64,000 nucleotides of DNA, taken from assembly GCF_009299795.1 (NCBI RefSeq), contig NZ_VIGP01000005.1:1-64000 (forward strand), in the 5' to 3' direction. Source of the DNA: Brachybacterium subflavum (GTDB lineage Bacteria > Actinomycetota > Actinomycetes > Actinomycetales > Dermabacteraceae). How positions within the stretch are numbered: position 1 is the first letter of the stretch; each line of letters starts with the position of its first letter. The notes under the pieces are model-generated. The model saw nothing but the letters and a program-made list of their open reading frames with translations, did not search any database and was not told the origin of the DNA. The position numbers were made by a program, and so were the translations under genes. Shown here piece by piece: positions 27,950 to 35,662 of this stretch.

Positions 27950-28067
27950 GGGTCCTCCTGCGTCCGGGGCGGTGCACCCGCGCCGATCGTCGCGTGCGGC
28001 TCCGAGGTATTGATCCCAGTATTCGCCCCTCCCCCGCGAACCGGGGCCCGCGTGCGGGGGCGTCGGG

Positions 28068-28073
28068 TAGATT
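28068..28073 (+). promoter_or_regulatory. -10 element for leaderless upp
   Basis: TAGATT ends 7 nt before ATG 28081; the gap lacks a ribosome site. Confidence 0.6.
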
Positions 28074-28080
28074 CGGCGCC

Positions 28081-28719
28081 ATGCGCGTGCTCGAACTCGA
28101 CCATCCCCTCGTCGCCCACAAGCTGACGGCGCTCCGCAAGGCCGAGACGCGGTCCTCGATGTTCCGCCTGCTGGCCGACGAGCTGGTGACCCTGCTGGCC
28201 TACGAGGCCACGCGCAACGTGGCGGTGGCCCCCGTCGAGATCCGGACCCCGGTGACGACGATGACCGGCACGCGCCTGACGGATCCCAAGCCGATGGTGG
28301 TCCCGATCCTGCGCGCGGGCCTGGGCATGCTCGACGGCATGACCCGCCTGCTGCCGACGGCCGAGGTCGGCTTCCTGGGCATGGTCCGCAACGACGAGAC
28401 CCTCGAGGTCACGACCTACGCGAACCGCCTGCCGGACGACCTCACCGACCGCCAGTGCTTCGTGCTGGACCCGATGCTCGCCACCGGCCACACGCTCATC
28501 GCCTCCGTGAACTACCTGCACGAGCGCGGCGCGAAGGACATCACCTGCGTGACCCTGCTGTGCGCCCCCGAGGGGCTGAAGACCCTCGACGAGCAGATCG
28601 ACCCGGCCATCGACCTCACCGTGGTCACCGCCGCCATCGACGAGAAGCTCAACGAGAAGGGCTACATCGTCCCCGGCCTCGGCGACGCGGGCGACCGCCT
28701 CTTCGGCGTCGTCGACTGA
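28081..28719 (+). CDS. upp: Uracil phosphoribosyltransferase
   Basis: 212-residue salvage enzyme converting uracil and PRPP to UMP. The PRPP loop is [17 protein letters not shown] and the uracil-binding end is [16 protein letters not shown]. Length fits the family (208-212). The start is set at ATG 28081 because it follows a TAGATT hexamer by 7 nt and the next residues ([19 protein letters not shown]) align with other Upp proteins; an upstream in-frame GTG/ATG extension is not needed. Confidence 0.95.
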
Positions 28720-28788
28720 GCGGACCCGTCGACGGACGACAGCTCTCGCCGGGTCTCACCTCGCGCGTCCCAGGATGCGAACACCTGC

Positions 28789-28818
28789 TTGAGAGCGGGC
28801 GCCGGCCTCGGGCATGAT
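28789..28818 (+). promoter_or_regulatory. Promoter of the Met/Cys-rich leader ORF
   Basis: TTGAGA (28789-28794) and CATGAT (28813-28818) are separated by 18 bp. The -10 ends 7 nt before the leader ATG, so the RNA should start at that ATG. This is one of the few promoters here with a recognisable -35. Confidence 0.6.
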
Positions 28819-28825
28819 GGCCGCT

Positions 28826-28933
28826 ATGTTCACGAACGCTCCGAGCCGAGAGGTCGCCACGACGGCGGCCCGCTCGATGATGCGTTCGATGATGATGTGC
28901 ATGTGCATGATGCACCGTCAGCCGAGCCTCTGA
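28826..28933 (+). CDS. Met/Cys-rich leader peptide (35 residues)
   Basis: A short frame from ATG 28826 to TGA 28933 encodes a peptide whose residues 18-29 are MMRSMMMCMCMM: eight Met and two Cys in twelve positions. It has its own promoter and a predicted leaderless start. The last codons and the stop lie in the left arm of a potential hairpin (28919-28925 with 28955-28961). The winged-helix gene begins 172 nt later on the same strand. This is the layout of a ribosome-mediated attenuator responding to Met or Cys charging. The peptide is presumably not functional itself. No experimental homologue is known to me. Confidence 0.6.
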   Translation: MFTNAPSREVATTAARSMMRSMMMCMCMMHRQPSL

Positions 28934-28961
28934 GCGCTCGAGAGTCCTCCGGGGTCGGCTG
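28919..28961 (+). promoter_or_regulatory. Hairpin overlapping the leader stop codon
   Basis: CAGCCGA (28919-28925) pairs with TCGGCTG (28955-28961); the left arm is within the last codons of the leader ORF. A ribosome paused at the Met/Cys run about 20-35 nt upstream would leave it free to fold, while a terminating ribosome would cover it. A second GC-rich hairpin follows at 28969-29003 (CCGGCCGG repeated around GAAG/CTTC). Confidence 0.45.
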
Positions 28962-29104
28962 ACAGGAGCCGGCCGGAAGGCGCGGGCTTCAGGTGCCGGC
29001 CGGGAGCACAACCCAGCGATCCGCGAACCTGACGCGTCGATCGGAACTGGGATCCCGGGTCCCCACCCGTTGCACCAGGCGTGCACGAACCCGGAGAACG
29101 CATC

Positions 29105-30001
29105 ATGAGCATCACCCTGAACAGTCCTGTCACCCAGACCCGCACCCCGCAGAGTGTCGCCGGCCAGAGCCCGGTCGCCCGCGTCGAGCGCCCCGCGCAC
29201 GATCGCGGCCCCCGCGCCCTGCGTCCCCAGCACGCCGGCCGTCCCGCCTTCCGGGCCCCCGGTGCCGCAGGGCAGTCCGCCGGATCGTCGGCGCTGGCCG
29301 CCGCGCCGGAGTCCGACCAGGTCACGCTGACCCTCACGGTCACGCTGCCGGCCGGCACGCCCGACGTCGAGGCAGCCCAGATCGCCGACGCGCTGCGCGC
29401 CAACGCCCGTCGCCTCACGGCCGGTCGCCGCGCCTCGGCGAGCGTGGGCGTGCGCTCCCCGCGCCCCTTCTCCCCCACCGGCGAGGCCGCGGAGACGAGC
29501 ACGACGAGCACCGCACCCACCCTGCGGGCGCTCCCGCCGCGCACCCAGGACGGCGAGGCCGCGCAGCCCGAGCGCACGCGCCGCACCGGCGTCGTCTCGC
29601 CGAACTCCCCGGCCCGCCGGGATGCCGAGGCGGCCCGCCAGCGCCTGCTGCGCGCCACCGCCGTGAGCCCGAACGCCGCTCCCGCCGCGAGCACGGACTG
29701 CTCGCTGGTGATCGACCTCTTCGGCCGCCGCGTGCGCATCGACGGCGAGGACGTGGACCTCACCTACAAGGAGTTCGAGCTGCTCGCGCACCTGGCGCGC
29801 GGCGCCCGCCGGATCATCGGCCGCGACGAGCTCATGGAGTCCGTGTGGGCCGACGCCTCGGCCGAGACCGGTGAGCGCACCGTCGACGTGCACGTGCGCC
29901 GCGTGCGCGCGAAGCTCGGCCGCTACCGCCGCCTGATCTCCACCGTGCGCGGTGCGGGCTACCGCCTGGACACCGGCAGCGACGTCGCGATCCTCGACTG
30001 A
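29105..30001 (+). CDS. Winged-helix (Trans_reg_C) DNA-binding protein
   Basis: 298-residue protein. Residues about 200-298 form an OmpR/PhoB-type winged helix (VDLTYKEFELLAHLARG, then RTVDVHVRRVRAKLGRY and STVRGAGYRL). No receiver domain is present; instead the first 200 residues are mostly low-complexity Ala/Pro/Arg/Ser sequence with one ordered-looking stretch near 75-115 (VTLTLTVTLPAGTPDVE). It may therefore be regulated by abundance or a ligand rather than phosphorylation. A ribosome site GGAGA precedes ATG 29105. A Met/Cys-rich leader ORF upstream suggests translation-coupled control. Confidence 0.82.
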   Translation: MSITLNSPVTQTRTPQSVAGQSPVARVERPAHDRGPRALRPQHAGRPAFRAPGAAGQSAGSSALAAAPESDQVTLTLTVTLPAGTPDVEAAQIADALRANARRLTAGRRASASVGVRSPRPFSPTGEAAETSTTSTAPTLRALPPRTQDGEAAQPERTRRTGVVSPNSPARRDAEAARQRLLRATAVSPNAAPAASTDCSLVIDLFGRRVRIDGEDVDLTYKEFELLAHLARGARRIIGRDELMESVWADASAETGERTVDVHVRRVRAKLGRYRRLISTVRGAGYRLDTGSDVAILD

Positions 30002-30037
30002 CCGCGCCGCTCCCACCGAACCCCCACCCCGAGGACC

Positions 30038-30073
30038 ACCGACCCGGACGGGCAGCCGCTCGTCCGGGTCGGT
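30038..30073 (+). terminator. Terminator after the winged-helix gene
   Basis: A perfect 13-bp stem (ACCGACCCGGACG with its complement at 30061-30073) closes a 10-nt loop 37 bp after the stop codon, followed by a short mixed tail with TTCT. Confidence 0.8.
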
Positions 30074-30519
30074 GCATTCTGCGCGGGATGCGCATTCCGC
30101 GCGGGATGCACGTCGTCGGCGCGGATCCGAGAAGAGCGAACGGCCCGGAGCTCACATCGACGCACTGTCGGGGCTCACGGGCCGTTCGCGATGCCAGCCG
30201 TCCCTCAATGGTGGTGGGTGCGGACGACCAGGCAACACGGGTCCACCGATATCGGGGGGAACGTCGGAGGACCCGATCGTCGCCTCCCGCGAGGGGGATC
30301 GAGGAGGCGACGTCCGGGACGATGCTACGGCTCGTCGAGCGAGAATGTAAACGCGAACATGCAATGCTTTGCAGGCCTTTGCGCGGCCATGACCAAGTCG
30401 GGGTCGCCGTTGTCTCCGGCACGTGTGCACCGGTCAGGCGATGGGCGTCTCGTAGAGTGGAGCACGGCCCCGCACGCACCGCGGGTGTGTCCACCACCGC
30501 AGTGAGGGAGAGCCCATCC
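30074..30519. other. Long intergenic region with a second large hairpin and an A/T-rich patch
   Basis: No gene is supported here. GCGAACGGCCCG (30136-30147) pairs perfectly with 30178-30189; the 30-nt interior can extend the stem (GAGC/GCTC, CGAC/GTCG), so a structured RNA or a terminator is possible. An A/T-richer stretch around 30340-30382 (ATGTAAACGCGAACAT) looks operator-like, with ATGT and ACAT ends in inverted orientation. TAGAGT at 30453-30458 is a plausible -10 for the ParA-like gene, leaving a roughly 55-nt leader. Confidence 0.45.
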
Positions 30520-32274
30520 ATGATCGCGCAGGCGCGCATCGACTCCGACCGGTCCGCGACCGTCCACCTGGCCGATGAGGAGATCGGGATCCACGGCGAG
30601 CACATCTCCGAGGTGCGGGCGAACGTCAAGAGCGTGTTCATCGACGCCGCCCGTCGCGCCGGCCGCGACCTCGACGTCGTGATCGCCGAGCCCGACGCCA
30701 CGCTTCATCTGCGCGTGGAGCCCTCGGGTCGCATCAGCACCCGCGAGGCCGACGACCGGCCGCTCTTCGGCCCGTCCGCAGGCCGCGCCGACCACGGGGC
30801 GGGCTCCCCCTCCGCGTCCTCCTCCCCCGCTCACTCGTACTCGGCGAGCTCGTTCGACGTGGCCTCGTTCGGACAGGGCTCGTTCGATCCCGACGGGGAC
30901 GTCGCGGCGACCGCCGTGCACCCCGCAGTCCCCGAGGGCGGCACGGCGGACAGTCCCTCCTGGATCCCGCCGTCGCTGCTCGGCGAGGAGGCCCACGAGG
31001 CGCAGGACGAGCAGGGTCCACGGGACGAGCAGGGATCCCACGGCTCCCAGGGGCCCAACGGCTCCCAGGGGTCCCAGGACGGGCGCGCCGCCGCATCCGG
31101 AGCGCAGACCGGTGCGGCGAGCGCGTCGGGCGTCGGCTCCACGGCGGCGATCGCGCCGAGCACCTCCGCCGCATCGCCCGCGCCGGCCCCCGCCTCTCCG
31201 GCGGCTTCGCCCGCCGAGCCCGGTGACCAGGCGGGCCGTTCGGCGCGCCCCGGCCATGGCCGCCGCGCCGCCGCGATGGCGCCGCAGGTGGCGGACGCGC
31301 CGCAGGTGGCGGATGCGCCGCCTTCGGGCGAGCCCCGTCGGCCCACCCTCCAGGACCTCCAGTCCGCCGGCTTTCAGCCGTCGCCCGCCCCGGCGACCCG
31401 CGGCTGGCAGGGCACCCTCACGCGCCTGACCGGCGGGCGGATCTCCCCGCGCCCCGGCCGCGCCGAGCGCGAGGAGCGCGCCCAGCTGCAGCGCATCTCC
31501 CGCACCCTCGACGGCCCGAAGAACATCGCGGTGGTGAACCTCAAGGGCGGTGCCCACAAGACCACCGCCTCGCTCATGATCGCCGCGACGCTGGGCATGG
31601 CCCGCGGCGGCGGCGTGCTGGCCTGGGACAACAACGAGACGCGGGGGACCCTGGGCTGGCGCGGCGCGCCTGCCGAGCACCACCGCACCGCCATCGACCT
31701 GCTGCGCGACCTCGACCAGCTGCGCACCGAGCAGGCCACCGTCTCCGACCTCGACCGCTACGTGCGCCGGCAGGAGGCCACCCGCTTCGACATCCTCGCC
31801 TCCGACGAGGACCCGGGCTCGGCGGCCCTCATCGACGACGCCGCGTTCCGCGAGCTCGACGAGACCCTCTCGCGGTTCTACCGCCTCAAGGTCATCGACA
31901 CCGGCAACAACGTGCGCGCCTCGAACTGGCTGGCCGGCGTGCAGTCGGCCGATCAGCTGGTGATCATCTCGACCCTGCGCGAGGACACCTTCAACGCCGC
32001 CGCCTGGATGATCGACGAGCTGCGCGCGACGGGCCTCGCCCAGCAGGTCGACCACGCGGTGACGATCCTGTCGCACTCCTCGGACAAGAAGAAGATGGAC
32101 CCCTCGCTGCGCAGCCAGCTGCACAAGCACTTCGGGGCGCACACCCGCGCGATCGTCGAGGTCCCCTTCGAGGAGCAGTTCGTGGACGGATCGCCGCTGG
32201 ACTTCTCCCGGATCCACCCGGAGACGCGGGCCGCGTGGCTGCGGGCGACCGCCGAGATCGTCGACGGCCTGTGA
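30520..32274 (+). CDS. ParA/MinD-like P-loop ATPase with long disordered linker
   Basis: 584-residue cytosolic protein. A conserved-looking head of about 85 residues (IDSDRSATVHLADEEIGIHG onward) is followed by about 220 residues of Ser/Pro/Ala/Gln-rich linker with short repeats (DEQG, GSQG, APQVAD). The ATPase starts near 330 with a deviant Walker A KGGAHKTT (residues 342-349), where the usual second lysine order KGGVGKTT is altered to AHK. IDTGNNVRASNW fills the Walker B region. Relatives act in chromosome or protein-machine positioning; no ParB partner or ESX gene is adjacent. GAGGGAG precedes the ATG. Function is unassigned. Confidence 0.75.
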   Translation: MIAQARIDSDRSATVHLADEEIGIHGEHISEVRANVKSVFIDAARRAGRDLDVVIAEPDATLHLRVEPSGRISTREADDRPLFGPSAGRADHGAGSPSASSSPAHSYSASSFDVASFGQGSFDPDGDVAATAVHPAVPEGGTADSPSWIPPSLLGEEAHEAQDEQGPRDEQGSHGSQGPNGSQGSQDGRAAASGAQTGAASASGVGSTAAIAPSTSAASPAPAPASPAASPAEPGDQAGRSARPGHGRRAAAMAPQVADAPQVADAPPSGEPRRPTLQDLQSAGFQPSPAPATRGWQGTLTRLTGGRISPRPGRAEREERAQLQRISRTLDGPKNIAVVNLKGGAHKTTASLMIAATLGMARGGGVLAWDNNETRGTLGWRGAPAEHHRTAIDLLRDLDQLRTEQATVSDLDRYVRRQEATRFDILASDEDPGSAALIDDAAFRELDETLSRFYRLKVIDTGNNVRASNWLAGVQSADQLVIISTLREDTFNAAAWMIDELRATGLAQQVDHAVTILSHSSDKKKMDPSLRSQLHKHFGAHTRAIVEVPFEEQFVDGSPLDFSRIHPETRAAWLRATAEIVDGL

Positions 32275-32349
32275 GGACGGGGCCGACCCGCTCGCTCCTC
32301 CCCACCGGGCTCCCGTCCACCGTGCGCCCCGGACGTCTGAGGATGCGCG

Positions 32350-32355
32350 TAGGTT
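32350..32355 (+). promoter_or_regulatory. -10 element for the leaderless SNF2 helicase operon
   Basis: TAGGTT ends 7 nt before ATG 32363; no ribosome site intervenes. Confidence 0.6.
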
Positions 32356-32362
32356 CGCCCTC

Positions 32363-35300
32363 ATGCCGCTGAACCGCTTGCACCTGGTCGTCGACGACGA
32401 TCTGGGCCCCGCGCTGTGGGTGCGGGTGCAGGCGGAGGGCGGCGGCTCCCGCCCTGCTGCGGACCTCTCCGGTCTGCTCGCCGAGGCGCCGAACGGCCTC
32501 GCCGACGCCCTGTCCCGAGCGCTCGGTCGGCACGAGGGCACGCTGCGCCATCGCGTGCGCGTGCGCGGCCGCACGAGCGAGCACCGCGTCCCCGCCCTGC
32601 CGCTCGACGGGCAGGCGCTGCTGGACGTGGTCGGCGCGATCGGCGGCCTCGTGGCCGCGCGCACGGGCGCGGGCACGGAACCCGCAGGGCCGACGGAGCC
32701 CACAGGGGCCTCTGACACCGTGAGCGAGGTGGCCGCCGTGATCGGGCCGCTAGTGGAGGCCGGCACCTCCCTGCGGCTGTCCGACCAGGTCATCGCCATG
32801 CCGGACCTGCTCACGGCCGTGGTGCTGGACCGGCACGCCGAACGCCTCGTCGCCGCCCGCCACCTGCGGGTGCGGGTCCTCGAGCGCTTCGGCCGCCCCT
32901 GGGCGCGCTGGTCCGCCCTCGAGGACGATGCCCAGCCGCTGCTGCACTCCCTCGTCGATGCCCGCGCGCGCGAGGCCTTCGCCCGGCACGTCGCCTCCCG
33001 TCGCCGCGCGGAGACGGAGACGCCGGAGGGCGCCGCCGCGAAGGATCCGACGGCGCTCATCTCCTCGCTGTCCGCACCCTCCGCCGATGCCCCCGTGCGG
33101 GCCGACGTCCCGACCCAGCGGCGCATGCAGGCGGCGCTCGACGCGTTCGTCGACTCCGGCCGCGCCCGCGTGCACCTCTCCTCGACCGGCTCGGAGCTCG
33201 TGGTGCGCCTGCACGAGCCGCCGCTGGGCACCGCGTGGCCCCTGCAGACCTGCCTGCGCGACGCCGACGGGACGGTGCGGCCCGTCGCGGACCTGCGCGC
33301 CGTGGGCGACGTGGGCGTCGAAGGGGCCGCGGAGGCGTCGGCCGAGGTCATGCGCCTCGCACCGACGGTGCGCGGGGCCGCCGTCGACGACACCGGCGTG
33401 GACTGGCTGCTCACCACCGCCCAGGCCTCCGCCTTCCTCGCCCATGACACCGGCGCACTCGAGGCCGCGGGCGTCACCGTGATGCTCCCGCGCGAGTGGA
33501 CGAAGCAGAAGACCCGCCTGCAGGCCGTGGTCGGCGAGGAGGAGGCCGAGCAGGAGAAGACGGGCAGCGGCGTGGGCATGCAGGCCATGGCTCGGTTCGA
33601 CTGGAAGATCTCCGTCGGGGACGTGGAACTCACCGAGGACGAGATCGCGGAGATCCGCGCCGCCCAGGCCGAGCTCGTGCAGCTGCGCGGCCAGTGGGTG
33701 CGCCTGGACTCCACGACGCTGCGCGCCGCCGAGCGGTTCCTCGACGCGTTCACGGCGAAGAGGCGCGGGCAGGGCGATGGTGAGGGCGGGCTCGGAGGCG
33801 GGGGTGCCGTCGACGGCGCGCGTCGGGCGCCGTCCCGTCGGCCCGACGCACCTCGCGATGCCGGGCGTCCCGAGCCGATCGCGGCGAGCGCCGGCAGCAT
33901 GCACTGGGGCGAGATGTTCACGCTGCTGGGCAGCGCCCAGGCCGAGGGCCTGCAGGTCCGCCTGCAGGCGGAGGATGCCGCGCCCGTGCCGCCTCAGGCC
34001 GGCGCGCCGGCGCGCGGACGCTCCAACGGTCTGCGCAACCTCGTGCCCGGCGGACCCGGGCCGCTCCCTCTTCCGCAGCCCGAGCGTCTGGACGCCTCGC
34101 TGCGCGGCTACCAGCTCGAGGGGCTGAACTGGATGTGGGCGCTGCACGAGCTGGGACTCGGCGGGATCCTGGCCGATGACATGGGGCTCGGCAAGACGAT
34201 GCAGGTCCTCGCGCTGCTCTGCCGCGAGCGGGAGGCGGACCCCGCCGCGGTCGCCCCCGAGGTGCGGCCCGCGCGGGTGCGTCCGCGCCCCGGGGCTCGC
34301 TCGCGCAGCGCGGGCGCGGGCCCCGCGCCCGGCCCCACGCTGCTGGTCTGCCCGATGTCCGTCGTCGGCTCCTGGCAGCGCGAGGCCGCGCGCTTCGCCC
34401 CGGACCTCGCGGTGCACGTCCACCACGGCGGCGATCGCATCCGCGACGCCTCCTTCGCCGAGGGCGCGGCAGACGTCGACCTCGTGATCACCACCTACTC
34501 CCTGCTGGACCGGGACCTCGAGGTGCTCTCCCAGGTGCGCTGGCACCGCCTCGTGCTGGATGAGGCCCAGCACGTGAAGAACGCCGGCACGGCCGTGGCG
34601 AAGGCGGCGCGGGCACTGCGGGCCCCGCACCGTCTGGCGCTCACTGGCACGCCGGTCGAGAACCGGCTGAGCGACCTCCATGCCCTCATGGAGACCGTGA
34701 ATCCCGGTCTGCTGGGCAGCGCCTCCTCGTTCCAGGAGCATCTCGCGGGCCCGATCGAGAAGGACGGCGACGACTCGGCGCTCGAGCGCCTGCGTGCCCT
34801 GACCACCCCGTTCGTGCTGCGACGCGTGAAGACGGATCCGAGCATCATCTCCGACCTGCCCGCGAAGATCGACATGGTGCGCACCGTGAACCTCACCCCC
34901 GAGCAGGCGGGCCTGTACGAGGCGCTCGTCGGCGAGCTCATGGCCCAGATCGACGGCGCCGACCAGAACCAGCGCCGCACGCTCGTCGTCTCCACGCTCA
35001 CCAAGCTCAAGCAGGTCTGCAACCACCCCGCCCACTACCTCGGCGACGGCTCCGCGATCCTTCGCGACGGGCAGCACCGCTCCGGCAAGCTCGAGTACGT
35101 CGACGACCTGCTCGGATCCGCCTTCGCCGACGGCGAGAAGGTGCTGCTGTTCACCCAGTTCACGACCTTCGGGCACATGCTGATCCCCTACTGGCGCGAG
35201 CGGTTCGGCCGCGAGGTCCCCTTCCTGCACGGCGGGGTGAAGAAGGCCGACCGGGACGACATGGTCGCACATTTCCAGTCCACGCCCGGCGAACCCGGGG

Positions 35301-35662
35301 CGATGCTGCTGAGCCTGCGCGCGGGCGGCACGGGACTCACCCTCACCGCCGCCAACCACGTCGTCCACCTGGACCGCTGGTGGAACCCCGCCGTGGAGAA
35401 CCAGGCCACCGACCGCGCCTTCCGCATCGGCCAGACCAAGGACGTGCAGGTGCGCAAGCTCGTGGCCGCGGGCACCGTCGAGGAGCGCATCGACAACGTG
35501 CTCGCCGAGAAGCAGGAGCTCGCGGACCTCACCATCACGCCCGTCGAGAACGCGCTGGTGAACATGGACGCGGCGCAGCTGTGGGGCATGCTCGCGCTGT
35601 CCGACGGGGACGCGCCGGACGAGCGGGCACCGGACGCTCGGGCGGAGGGAGGCGGACGATGA
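32363..35662 (+). CDS. SNF2-family DNA-dependent ATPase/helicase
   Basis: 1099-residue protein. Residues about 1-580 form an accessory N-terminal region common to bacterial SNF2 proteins (helicase-associated part ending near ALNWM-type YQLEGLNWMWAL). Motif I is DDMGLGKTMQ near residue 605, motif II is DEAQH near 733 (DEAQ in place of DEAH), motif III LTGTPVENRLSDL, and motif VI ATDRAFRIGQTKDVQVRKL near 1015. These proteins translocate on duplex DNA; their bacterial role is unclear (RapA-like RNA polymerase recycling, repair, or defence). Its stop overlaps the start of a SWIM zinc-finger gene by four bases, and the two very likely work together. Confidence 0.9.
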   Translation: MPLNRLHLVVDDDLGPALWVRVQAEGGGSRPAADLSGLLAEAPNGLADALSRALGRHEGTLRHRVRVRGRTSEHRVPALPLDGQALLDVVGAIGGLVAARTGAGTEPAGPTEPTGASDTVSEVAAVIGPLVEAGTSLRLSDQVIAMPDLLTAVVLDRHAERLVAARHLRVRVLERFGRPWARWSALEDDAQPLLHSLVDARAREAFARHVASRRRAETETPEGAAAKDPTALISSLSAPSADAPVRADVPTQRRMQAALDAFVDSGRARVHLSSTGSELVVRLHEPPLGTAWPLQTCLRDADGTVRPVADLRAVGDVGVEGAAEASAEVMRLAPTVRGAAVDDTGVDWLLTTAQASAFLAHDTGALEAAGVTVMLPREWTKQKTRLQAVVGEEEAEQEKTGSGVGMQAMARFDWKISVGDVELTEDEIAEIRAAQAELVQLRGQWVRLDSTTLRAAERFLDAFTAKRRGQGDGEGGLGGGGAVDGARRAPSRRPDAPRDAGRPEPIAASAGSMHWGEMFTLLGSAQAEGLQVRLQAEDAAPVPPQAGAPARGRSNGLRNLVPGGPGPLPLPQPERLDASLRGYQLEGLNWMWALHELGLGGILADDMGLGKTMQVLALLCREREADPAAVAPEVRPARVRPRPGARSRSAGAGPAPGPTLLVCPMSVVGSWQREAARFAPDLAVHVHHGGDRIRDASFAEGAADVDLVITTYSLLDRDLEVLSQVRWHRLVLDEAQHVKNAGTAVAKAARALRAPHRLALTGTPVENRLSDLHALMETVNPGLLGSASSFQEHLAGPIEKDGDDSALERLRALTTPFVLRRVKTDPSIISDLPAKIDMVRTVNLTPEQAGLYEALVGELMAQIDGADQNQRRTLVVSTLTKLKQVCNHPAHYLGDGSAILRDGQHRSGKLEYVDDLLGSAFADGEKVLLFTQFTTFGHMLIPYWRERFGREVPFLHGGVKKADRDDMVAHFQSTPGEPGAMLLSLRAGGTGLTLTAANHVVHLDRWWNPAVENQATDRAFRIGQTKDVQVRKLVAAGTVEERIDNVLAEKQELADLTITPVENALVNMDAAQLWGMLALSDGDAPDERAPDARAEGGGR

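Follow-up and report, generated by a model that had tools for sequence, protein, structure and literature searches.

A short reading frame filled with methionine codons precedes the gene of an orphan OmpR-type winged-helix regulator in Brachybacterium subflavum. From comparative sequence analysis and predicted RNA folds it seems rather likely that this leader is a ribosome-mediated attenuator which reads Met (ancestrally, probably Met and Cys) and controls the regulator, probably at the level of translation. By comparison with relatives, the Met run, a hairpin inside the reading frame (P1) and four pairing arms were found to be conserved, as was, in Brachybacterium, a complementarity to the Shine-Dalgarno (SD) region of the regulator.

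The leader and its promoter

Coordinates are those of the window, the whole 64,000-nt stretch of DNA that was analysed, and are collected in Table 1.

Table 1 Features of the leader region and the regulator gene
Feature	Position	Strand	Description and basis
Box GTYYCRNNNTGYGAAC	28767-28782	+	Upstream of the leader promoter; genus alignment, by eye in some other genera
Promoter	28789-28818	+	-35 TTGAGA 28789-28794, -10 CATGAT 28813-28818; consensus scan
Met-run leader ORF, leaderless type	28826-28933	+	35 codons plus stop; encodes MFTNAPSREVATTAARSMMRSMMMCMCMMHRQPSL
Hairpin P1 inside the ORF	28852-28870	+	28852-28858 pairs with 28864-28870
Met (here also Cys) codon run	28877-28912	+	Twelve codons, of which eight are Met and two Cys
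Arm 1	28917-28930	+	Within the final codons of the leader (GTCAGCCGA.CCTC)
Candidate anti-SD CTCCGGG	28947-28953	+	Complementary to 29090-29096
Arm 2	28951-28963	+	GGGGTCGGCTGAC; partner arm 1 or arm 3
Arm 3	28965-28974	+	GGAGCCGGCC; partner arm 2 or arm 4
Arm 4	28979-28990	+	GGCGCGGGCTTC; helix 3:4
Small hairpin GTGC/GCAC	28993-29009	+	Loop CCGGGA, complementary to TCCCGG downstream
Regulator SD region CCCGGAG	29090-29096	+	Sequence, complementarity
Orphan OmpR-type winged-helix regulator	29105-30001	+	Pfam PF00486 Trans_reg_C, residues 213-287

The original prediction described a 35-codon ORF with its own promoter and a leaderless start, eight Met and two Cys codons within twelve positions, and a winged-helix gene downstream on the same strand. 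These claims were borne out: the codons were counted as described, the downstream gene carries the Trans_reg_C domain, and -35 and -10 sites were found with 7 nt between the -10 and the leader ATG. The start would thus be of the leaderless type, as judged from the promoter position alone. Two promoter-like sites were present in 28000-30500, against a mean of 0.1 in shuffled sequence, and in an alignment of 23 genus sequences the TTG of the -35 is invariant and the -10 region partly conserved. The stop codon (28931-28933) had been placed in one arm of a hairpin; it does lie inside the hairpin of arms 1 and 2, between the arms rather than strictly in one of them. From this stop to the regulator ATG there are 171 nt. 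The sequence ATGATGNNNATGNNNATGATG occurs only once in the 4.0-Mb genome. The box upstream of the promoter also has one match genome-wide and was, on that ground, rejected as a regulon motif; as it is conserved in the genus, it might perhaps serve autoregulation.

Conservation of the Met run

In a first sample, regulator orthologues were present in all 23 other genomes of the genus, and a Met-run leader lay upstream in 22 of the 22 with readable upstream DNA (the 23rd orthologue, L014, stops at a contig edge and is outside that count). The family Dermabacteraceae yielded 46 distinct leader regions with 40 distinct peptide ends. Within the last 16 codons before those of arm 1, each of the 46 leaders has 5-11 Met (median 9); Met makes up 399 of the 736 residues there, and Cys 18, found in 11 leaders with at most two in each. 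Counting back from the arm-1 codons, Met is found at -3 in 46/46 leaders, at -5 in 45/46 and at -2 and -7 in 44/46 each. The N-terminal half and the residues that separate the Mets drift, but the Met count is maintained. Within the family there is no conservation of the Cys codons. Orthologues lacking the Met and Cys codons had been named as what would refute the prediction; Met proved to be kept, and Cys holds only outside the family.

These counts were compared with shuffled DNA (60 shuffles per locus, the best short upstream ORF being scored for Met plus Cys). Over 17 of the 46 family loci the last 14 codons held 6.0 Met plus Cys, the shuffled mean being 1.25. The observed count was never matched by shuffled DNA at 16 of the 17 loci, in one of which (L017) the best observed ORF was in another frame and was not the leader; at L064 it was matched in 1/60 shuffles.

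A covariance model built on the leader end (102 nt), run with stricter search filters by which weak matches may be lost, gave one match each in 27/27 genomes of the genus (this one included) and in 6/7 other genomes of the family, and 0/362 matches in other genomes from a sample of the order. In the seventh family genome (G327) the regulator follows upp and a short candidate ORF ends in MSMPEMRSGMHRCLCRA before its stop, with Met and Cys scattered; it is outside every count. A DNA pattern made for the family found 28 stretches over 84,980 named species. Twenty-seven are titled Brachybacterium, Dermabacter, Helcobacillus or Dermabacteraceae, and the 28th is a metagenome-assembled genome (Actinomycetales bacterium) whose leader is identical to a locus of the genus.

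As insertions and deletions come in whole codons and the Met run is kept, the ORF appears to be translated. The Met-run leader is real and conserved, is very probably translated, and lies within a switching RNA.

RNA helices of the leader region

P1 has 7 pairs, and 99.4% of its cells are paired in the 23 genus sequences. Its 13 double-change cells were reached by 0/500 shuffles and its 3 pairs with a double change by 15/500; the number of pair types is unremarkable (416/500). The N-terminus of the peptide varies while P1, inside the stretch that encodes it, still pairs. It is a possible pause hairpin.

Arms 1 to 4 form three helices, 1:2, 2:3 and 3:4, which are mutually exclusive and overlap the end of the leader ORF. 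The last leader codons, CGT CAG CCG AGC CTC, show zero synonymous changes in the 23 genus sequences, as expected for the arm of an RNA pairing. Covariation is clearest in helix 3:4 (99.7% of cells paired; 3/10 pairs changed on both sides) and thin in 1:2 and 2:3, which hardly vary. The core of helix 1:2 (93.8% of cells paired) is invariant, so that its support is mainly conservation. For helix 2:3, 96.3% of cells are paired, which 0/500 shuffles equal, and its covariation is weak (18-51/500 shuffles reach its counts). The structure made of 1:2, 3:4 and the small hairpin has 96.4% of cells paired; when the two whole structures are slid, at most 40.5% (this one) and 49.1% of cells are paired. 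Five pairs with double changes were observed against six in the control slid by -3, so this count alone proves nothing. Of the layout originally proposed, attenuation by Met or Cys supply, the Met-dominated leader and the exclusive hairpins are conserved in the family; the part played by Cys is not.

A long, strongly conserved RNA of several helices, with a possible long-range pairing CCGGGA/UCCCGG, might also be read as a structured RNA or riboswitch (for SAM, for example) that carries the short ORF by chance. This is very improbable. A gathering scan of the whole window with Rfam matched one tRNA only and nothing at the leader locus, SAM riboswitch and T-box families included; the whole-codon indels and the kept Met run point to translation; and the long-range element is missing in two deep members of the family, where the leader and arms 1-4 are retained. 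The small hairpin is missing in the deep members L064 and L094.

Possible Shine-Dalgarno pairing and the proposed switch

The segment following the leader stop contains a candidate anti-SD sequence. In 33 Brachybacterium sequences its duplex with the regulator SD was more stable within species (-16.7 kcal/mol) than across species (-15.7 kcal/mol; p=0.0018, 10,000 permutations, the sequences being taken without correction for phylogeny). The duplex of the post-stop segment with the SD had -15.7 kcal/mol against -9.5 kcal/mol for shuffled segments in 39 sequences; one of 40 had been dropped because no regulator start was recognised, and the start in L066 is doubtful. The complementarity is supported in Brachybacterium only: it was weak in 5/5 sequences from other genera, and outside Brachybacterium z fell below -2 in just 2/19 loci, the other 17 being unsupported. 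As an anti-SD in Brachybacterium, arm 4 was considered in 36/40 sequences (four had no recognised regulator start) and was rejected, its mean pairing being 0.11 with a stalled ribosome and 0.08 with the ribosome at the stop. One further set lost 2/31 sequences in which no regulator start was recognised.

Constrained folds, in which the ribosome footprint is held unpaired, were computed for 33 of 38 Brachybacterium leader regions. The predicted SD:anti-SD pairing was 0.22 in naked RNA, 0.21 with the ribosome on the first Met and 0.15 on the fourth-last Met; with the ribosome further on it was 0.65 (last Met) and 0.59 (stop). It exceeded 0.5 in 5-7 of the 33 RNAs when arm 1 was free, and in 20-21 once the ribosome had reached the last Met or the stop. 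Helix 1:2 stood at 0.69-0.79 with arm 1 free, and in these two late ribosome positions helix 2:3 stood at 0.47-0.52. The free fraction of the SD was 0.37 (naked), 0.36 (first Met), 0.21 (fourth-last Met), 0.10 (last Met) and 0.15 (stop); being already low at the fourth-last Met, it is not a clean read-out. The window's own RNA is predicted to shift weakly in the same way, with SD:anti-SD pairing at 0.00 in naked RNA and on the first Met, 0.11 on the last Met and 0.37 at the stop. When its arm 1 is covered, helix 2:3 reaches only 0.12-0.16 and 3:4 stays at 0.68-0.72; at the stop the two are 0.16 and 0.72, so 3:4 is not lowered.

These folds suggest how the switch could work. A leaderless ribosome would begin at the 5' AUG, and P1 may pause RNA polymerase. 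When Met-tRNA is scarce the ribosome would stall near the beginning of the Met run, before it comes to arm 1. Pairing of arm 1 with arm 2 would then trap the anti-SD beside arm 2 and leave the regulator SD open (ON). When Met is ample the ribosome would arrive at the leader end and cover arm 1, so that 1:2 is blocked, 2:3 becomes possible, and the anti-SD could pair with the regulator ribosome site (OFF). Met as the signal, the stalling, the polarity and a translational output are inferred. When the ribosome is held on the last Mets the predicted fold resembles that of the stop state, and the fold of naked RNA corresponds to ON; the polarity therefore depends on the stall position, and the great invariance of the last Mets is a counterpoint to an early stall.

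A leader reading frame with repeated codons for one amino acid and mutually exclusive helices matches an attenuator of the trp/his type; an intrinsic terminator is missing. The same sensor might have trp-like polarity, a transcriptional output, or both: a stall on the last Met would mask arm 1 and let 2:3 prevent 3:4, and otherwise transcription would be ended by 3:4 or, over the 171 nt that are not translated, by Rho. The topology of arms 1-4 is of the trp type, and Met is most invariant at -2, -3, -5 and -7, as if stalling there mattered. The Met/Cys codons of another family (f7, see below) abut the 5' arm of its hairpin, and Rho has been proposed for terminator-less mycobacterial Cys leaders in the available part of PMC1262725. 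This arrangement is nevertheless rather unlikely. No terminator-like site was found in a scan of 28000-30500 and a U-run is absent from the aligned relatives, which makes a classical transcriptional attenuator less likely; the SD complementarity would be left unexplained; and the window's own RNA keeps 3:4 when arm 1 is covered.

The regulator and its neighbourhood

No receiver domain was found in the regulator with Pfam. The N-terminus has a short stretch conserved in the alignment and modelled as beta-alpha-beta; the AlphaFold model has a mean pLDDT of 69.5, with 90 or more in the winged-helix blocks. In L066 the usual ATG context of the regulator reads ATC, and the start codon may differ. 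A perfect 12-bp inverted repeat without a U-run (30136-30147/30178-30189) lies 3' of the regulator and is a possible transcript end.

The metNIQ operon had been placed about 2 kb away, and this agrees with what was found: metN and metQ (domains NIL and Lipoprotein_9; TIGR02314 below its cut-off) lie on the opposite strand, metN at about 2 kb. Near the regulator metN also occurs in 5/6 stretches from other genera of the family that are long enough (L062, L063, L064, L066 and L067, not L065; L079 is too short to count). Of five other Brachybacterium stretches, none showed a clear metN within range; in L068 and L071 the DNA on the metN side is too short, and L072 offers only a weak ATPase match (35% identity). 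Genes for a ParA-like ATPase and an SNF2-type helicase follow the regulator (30520-35662), and the order upp, regulator, ParA-like, SNF2 recurs in 4/6 stretches from other genera (L062, L063, L066 and L067). Within Brachybacterium upp is not always adjacent: it is >5 kb off in L068 and absent from about 6 kb in L069. Extra DNA separates upp from the leader in L068, L069 and L070, which shows that the surroundings vary within the genus. That the regulator acts on Met or sulfur genes would be a guess.

The SAM-IV riboswitch was absent at threshold in 17/19 genomes of the genus, this one included; G016 and G017 gave the only two matches, both borderline (38-41 bits). SAM-IV is strong in several other families, f6 among them. 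This correlation, and it is only that, hints that SAM-IV was replaced by the Met leader in the genus.

Leaders in other Micrococcales families

A profile search found the regulator orthologue (E at most 1e-45) in 18/18 genomes of three other families, f6, f7 and f19, and in 0/62 genomes of other families in the same batch. The upp gene precedes the regulator on its strand, within the 1.5-kb flank, at 18/29 loci (10/10 in f7, 5/10 in f6 and 3/9 in f19). Leaders ending in Met and Cys before the stop were seen in two further families (MMMPARASMCCRMCR and MCPAGMCMLCVRCR), the third being weak. In f19 the leaders read like MTTNARPLSAQEANGTAGMMMPGRVGMCCRMCR up to the stop at 8/8 loci with upstream DNA, and their last 14 codons hold 6.75 Met plus Cys against 1.08 in shuffles, all eight loci standing at 0/60 (L150, cut by a contig end, was left out of this test). 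The f7 leaders, which read like MTSTTHSTRMCPAGMCMLCVRCR up to the stop, have 4.3 against 1.04 over 10 loci; six stand at 0/60 and the rest at 3, 9, 13 and 16 of 60, the last three not being clear of the shuffles. In f6 the figure was 2.6 against 1.25 shuffled, but the reverse strand gave 2.9 (10 loci), so there is no enrichment over it; a CCRMHA-like end, or the DNA for it, is present at 5/10 f6 loci (L113, L116, L117, L138 and L142).

In f7 the last leader codons pair with a downstream arm, with 6 outer pairs in 9/9 loci, and one pair in one locus is kept by a double change. For L148 the 5' arm that entered this count is a copy lying further upstream, with the same six outer letters.

The ends of the f19 leaders and of some f6 leaders (L116 765-855, L110 1034-1136, 0-based) have TGTTG(T/C)CGAATG in common, with UGU and CGA codons. 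Such codons are rare in high-GC genomes. This shared end, and the fact that a transcription regulator rather than an enzyme is controlled, would also suit arrest by the nascent peptide or a general sensing of translation stress, as for WhiB7, in which the peptide or antibiotics and not the level of Met-tRNA stall the ribosome. Such a mechanism is improbable here: the family maintains its Met count although the N-terminal half and the residues among the Mets change, and the fixed RQPSL is accounted for by RNA pairing, there being no synonymous change in the genus. At the peptide level the f19/f6 end resembles CMCRRMCAF of Streptomyces lividans, which suggests one wider leader family. The sequences of these families fit a deeper history of Met/Cys reading, and those of Dermabacteraceae fit reading of Met alone.

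A further scenario, somewhat less likely than not, is that an old leaderless Met/Cys leader, of the type predicted ahead of metNIQ in Streptomyces, moved onto the regulator in four Micrococcales families and so put the regulator at the top of a sulfur-amino-acid circuit, and that in Dermabacteraceae it became a reader of a Met run, acquired a switch of four arms that acts at the SD, and took over the role of SAM-IV. If true, no Met-codon attenuator before this one would have had the support of covariation or stood in front of a regulator. In other bacteria S-box/SAM riboswitches are known to read the Met supply. Were a regulator under a conserved Met reader, a single gene would give access to the control of sulfur amino acids in genomes mostly without SAM-IV; such a reader would also link the Streptomyces prediction to a wider leader family, and would be a clean test case for the coupling of leaderless translation to RNA folding.

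Comparison with known systems

In the open-access literature searched, no description was found of a Met leader ahead of a regulator or from Dermabacteraceae, and the accessible portion of PMC2965389 has no Met leader. The original prediction knew of no leader dominated by Met with Cys; that such leaders are unknown was not borne out, as the part of PMC8079986 that was available holds an RNA-seq-based prediction of a leaderless metL leader, MSTTSDRTPATEATTTPGARCMCRRMCAF followed by its stop, before metNIQ of S. lividans. It ends in CMCRRMCAF and has no typical Rho-independent terminator. The principle is therefore not new, and metL makes Met/Cys reading more likely and less novel. The leader described here shares with metL the leaderless-type short ORF, Met and Cys codons close to the stop, and the lack of a typical terminator, and the metL end resembles the f19/f6 leaders of this regulator; unlike metL, as far as that text describes it, it precedes a regulator and not a Met importer, has a long Met run, is dominated by Met, and shows conservation and competing arms.

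A survey of 2005 (PMC1262725) describes Cys-run leaders in its accessible part and reports that it saw no conserved RNA structures ahead of the methionine operons of Actinobacteria. Mycobacterial Cys-rich leaders and attenuation are treated in the sections available of PMC4633059 and PMC13236596, the latter citing Canestrari 2020 for Cys-run leaderless ORFs. Such ORFs, in mycobacteria and other Actinobacteria, resemble the present leader, on these excerpts, in their leaderless-type start, sulfur codons near the stop and lack of an intrinsic terminator, and differ in that here Met dominates and a winged-helix regulator rather than a cys operon follows. With the classical attenuators (trp, ilv and leu; trp of Corynebacterium and Streptomyces) it has in common a run of codons for a single amino acid and the competing helices 1:2, 2:3 and 3:4; set against them as the available text of PMC1262725 presents them, it has Met codons, no U-run terminator, arm 1 after the codon run, a possible anti-SD output and a regulator as the controlled gene. 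Like SAM-IV it would be an RNA control tied to the supply of Met or SAM, although this locus has no Rfam match.

The whiB7 leader is an actinobacterial case of leader control of a transcription regulator and is not known to have a Met run. It controls a WhiB protein, and the leader here precedes an OmpR-type winged helix. The whiB7 leader is mentioned in the part of PMC13236596 that was available. Against the literature searched, the novel elements are the run of Met codons, the switch with four arms and a regulator as the gene that would be controlled.
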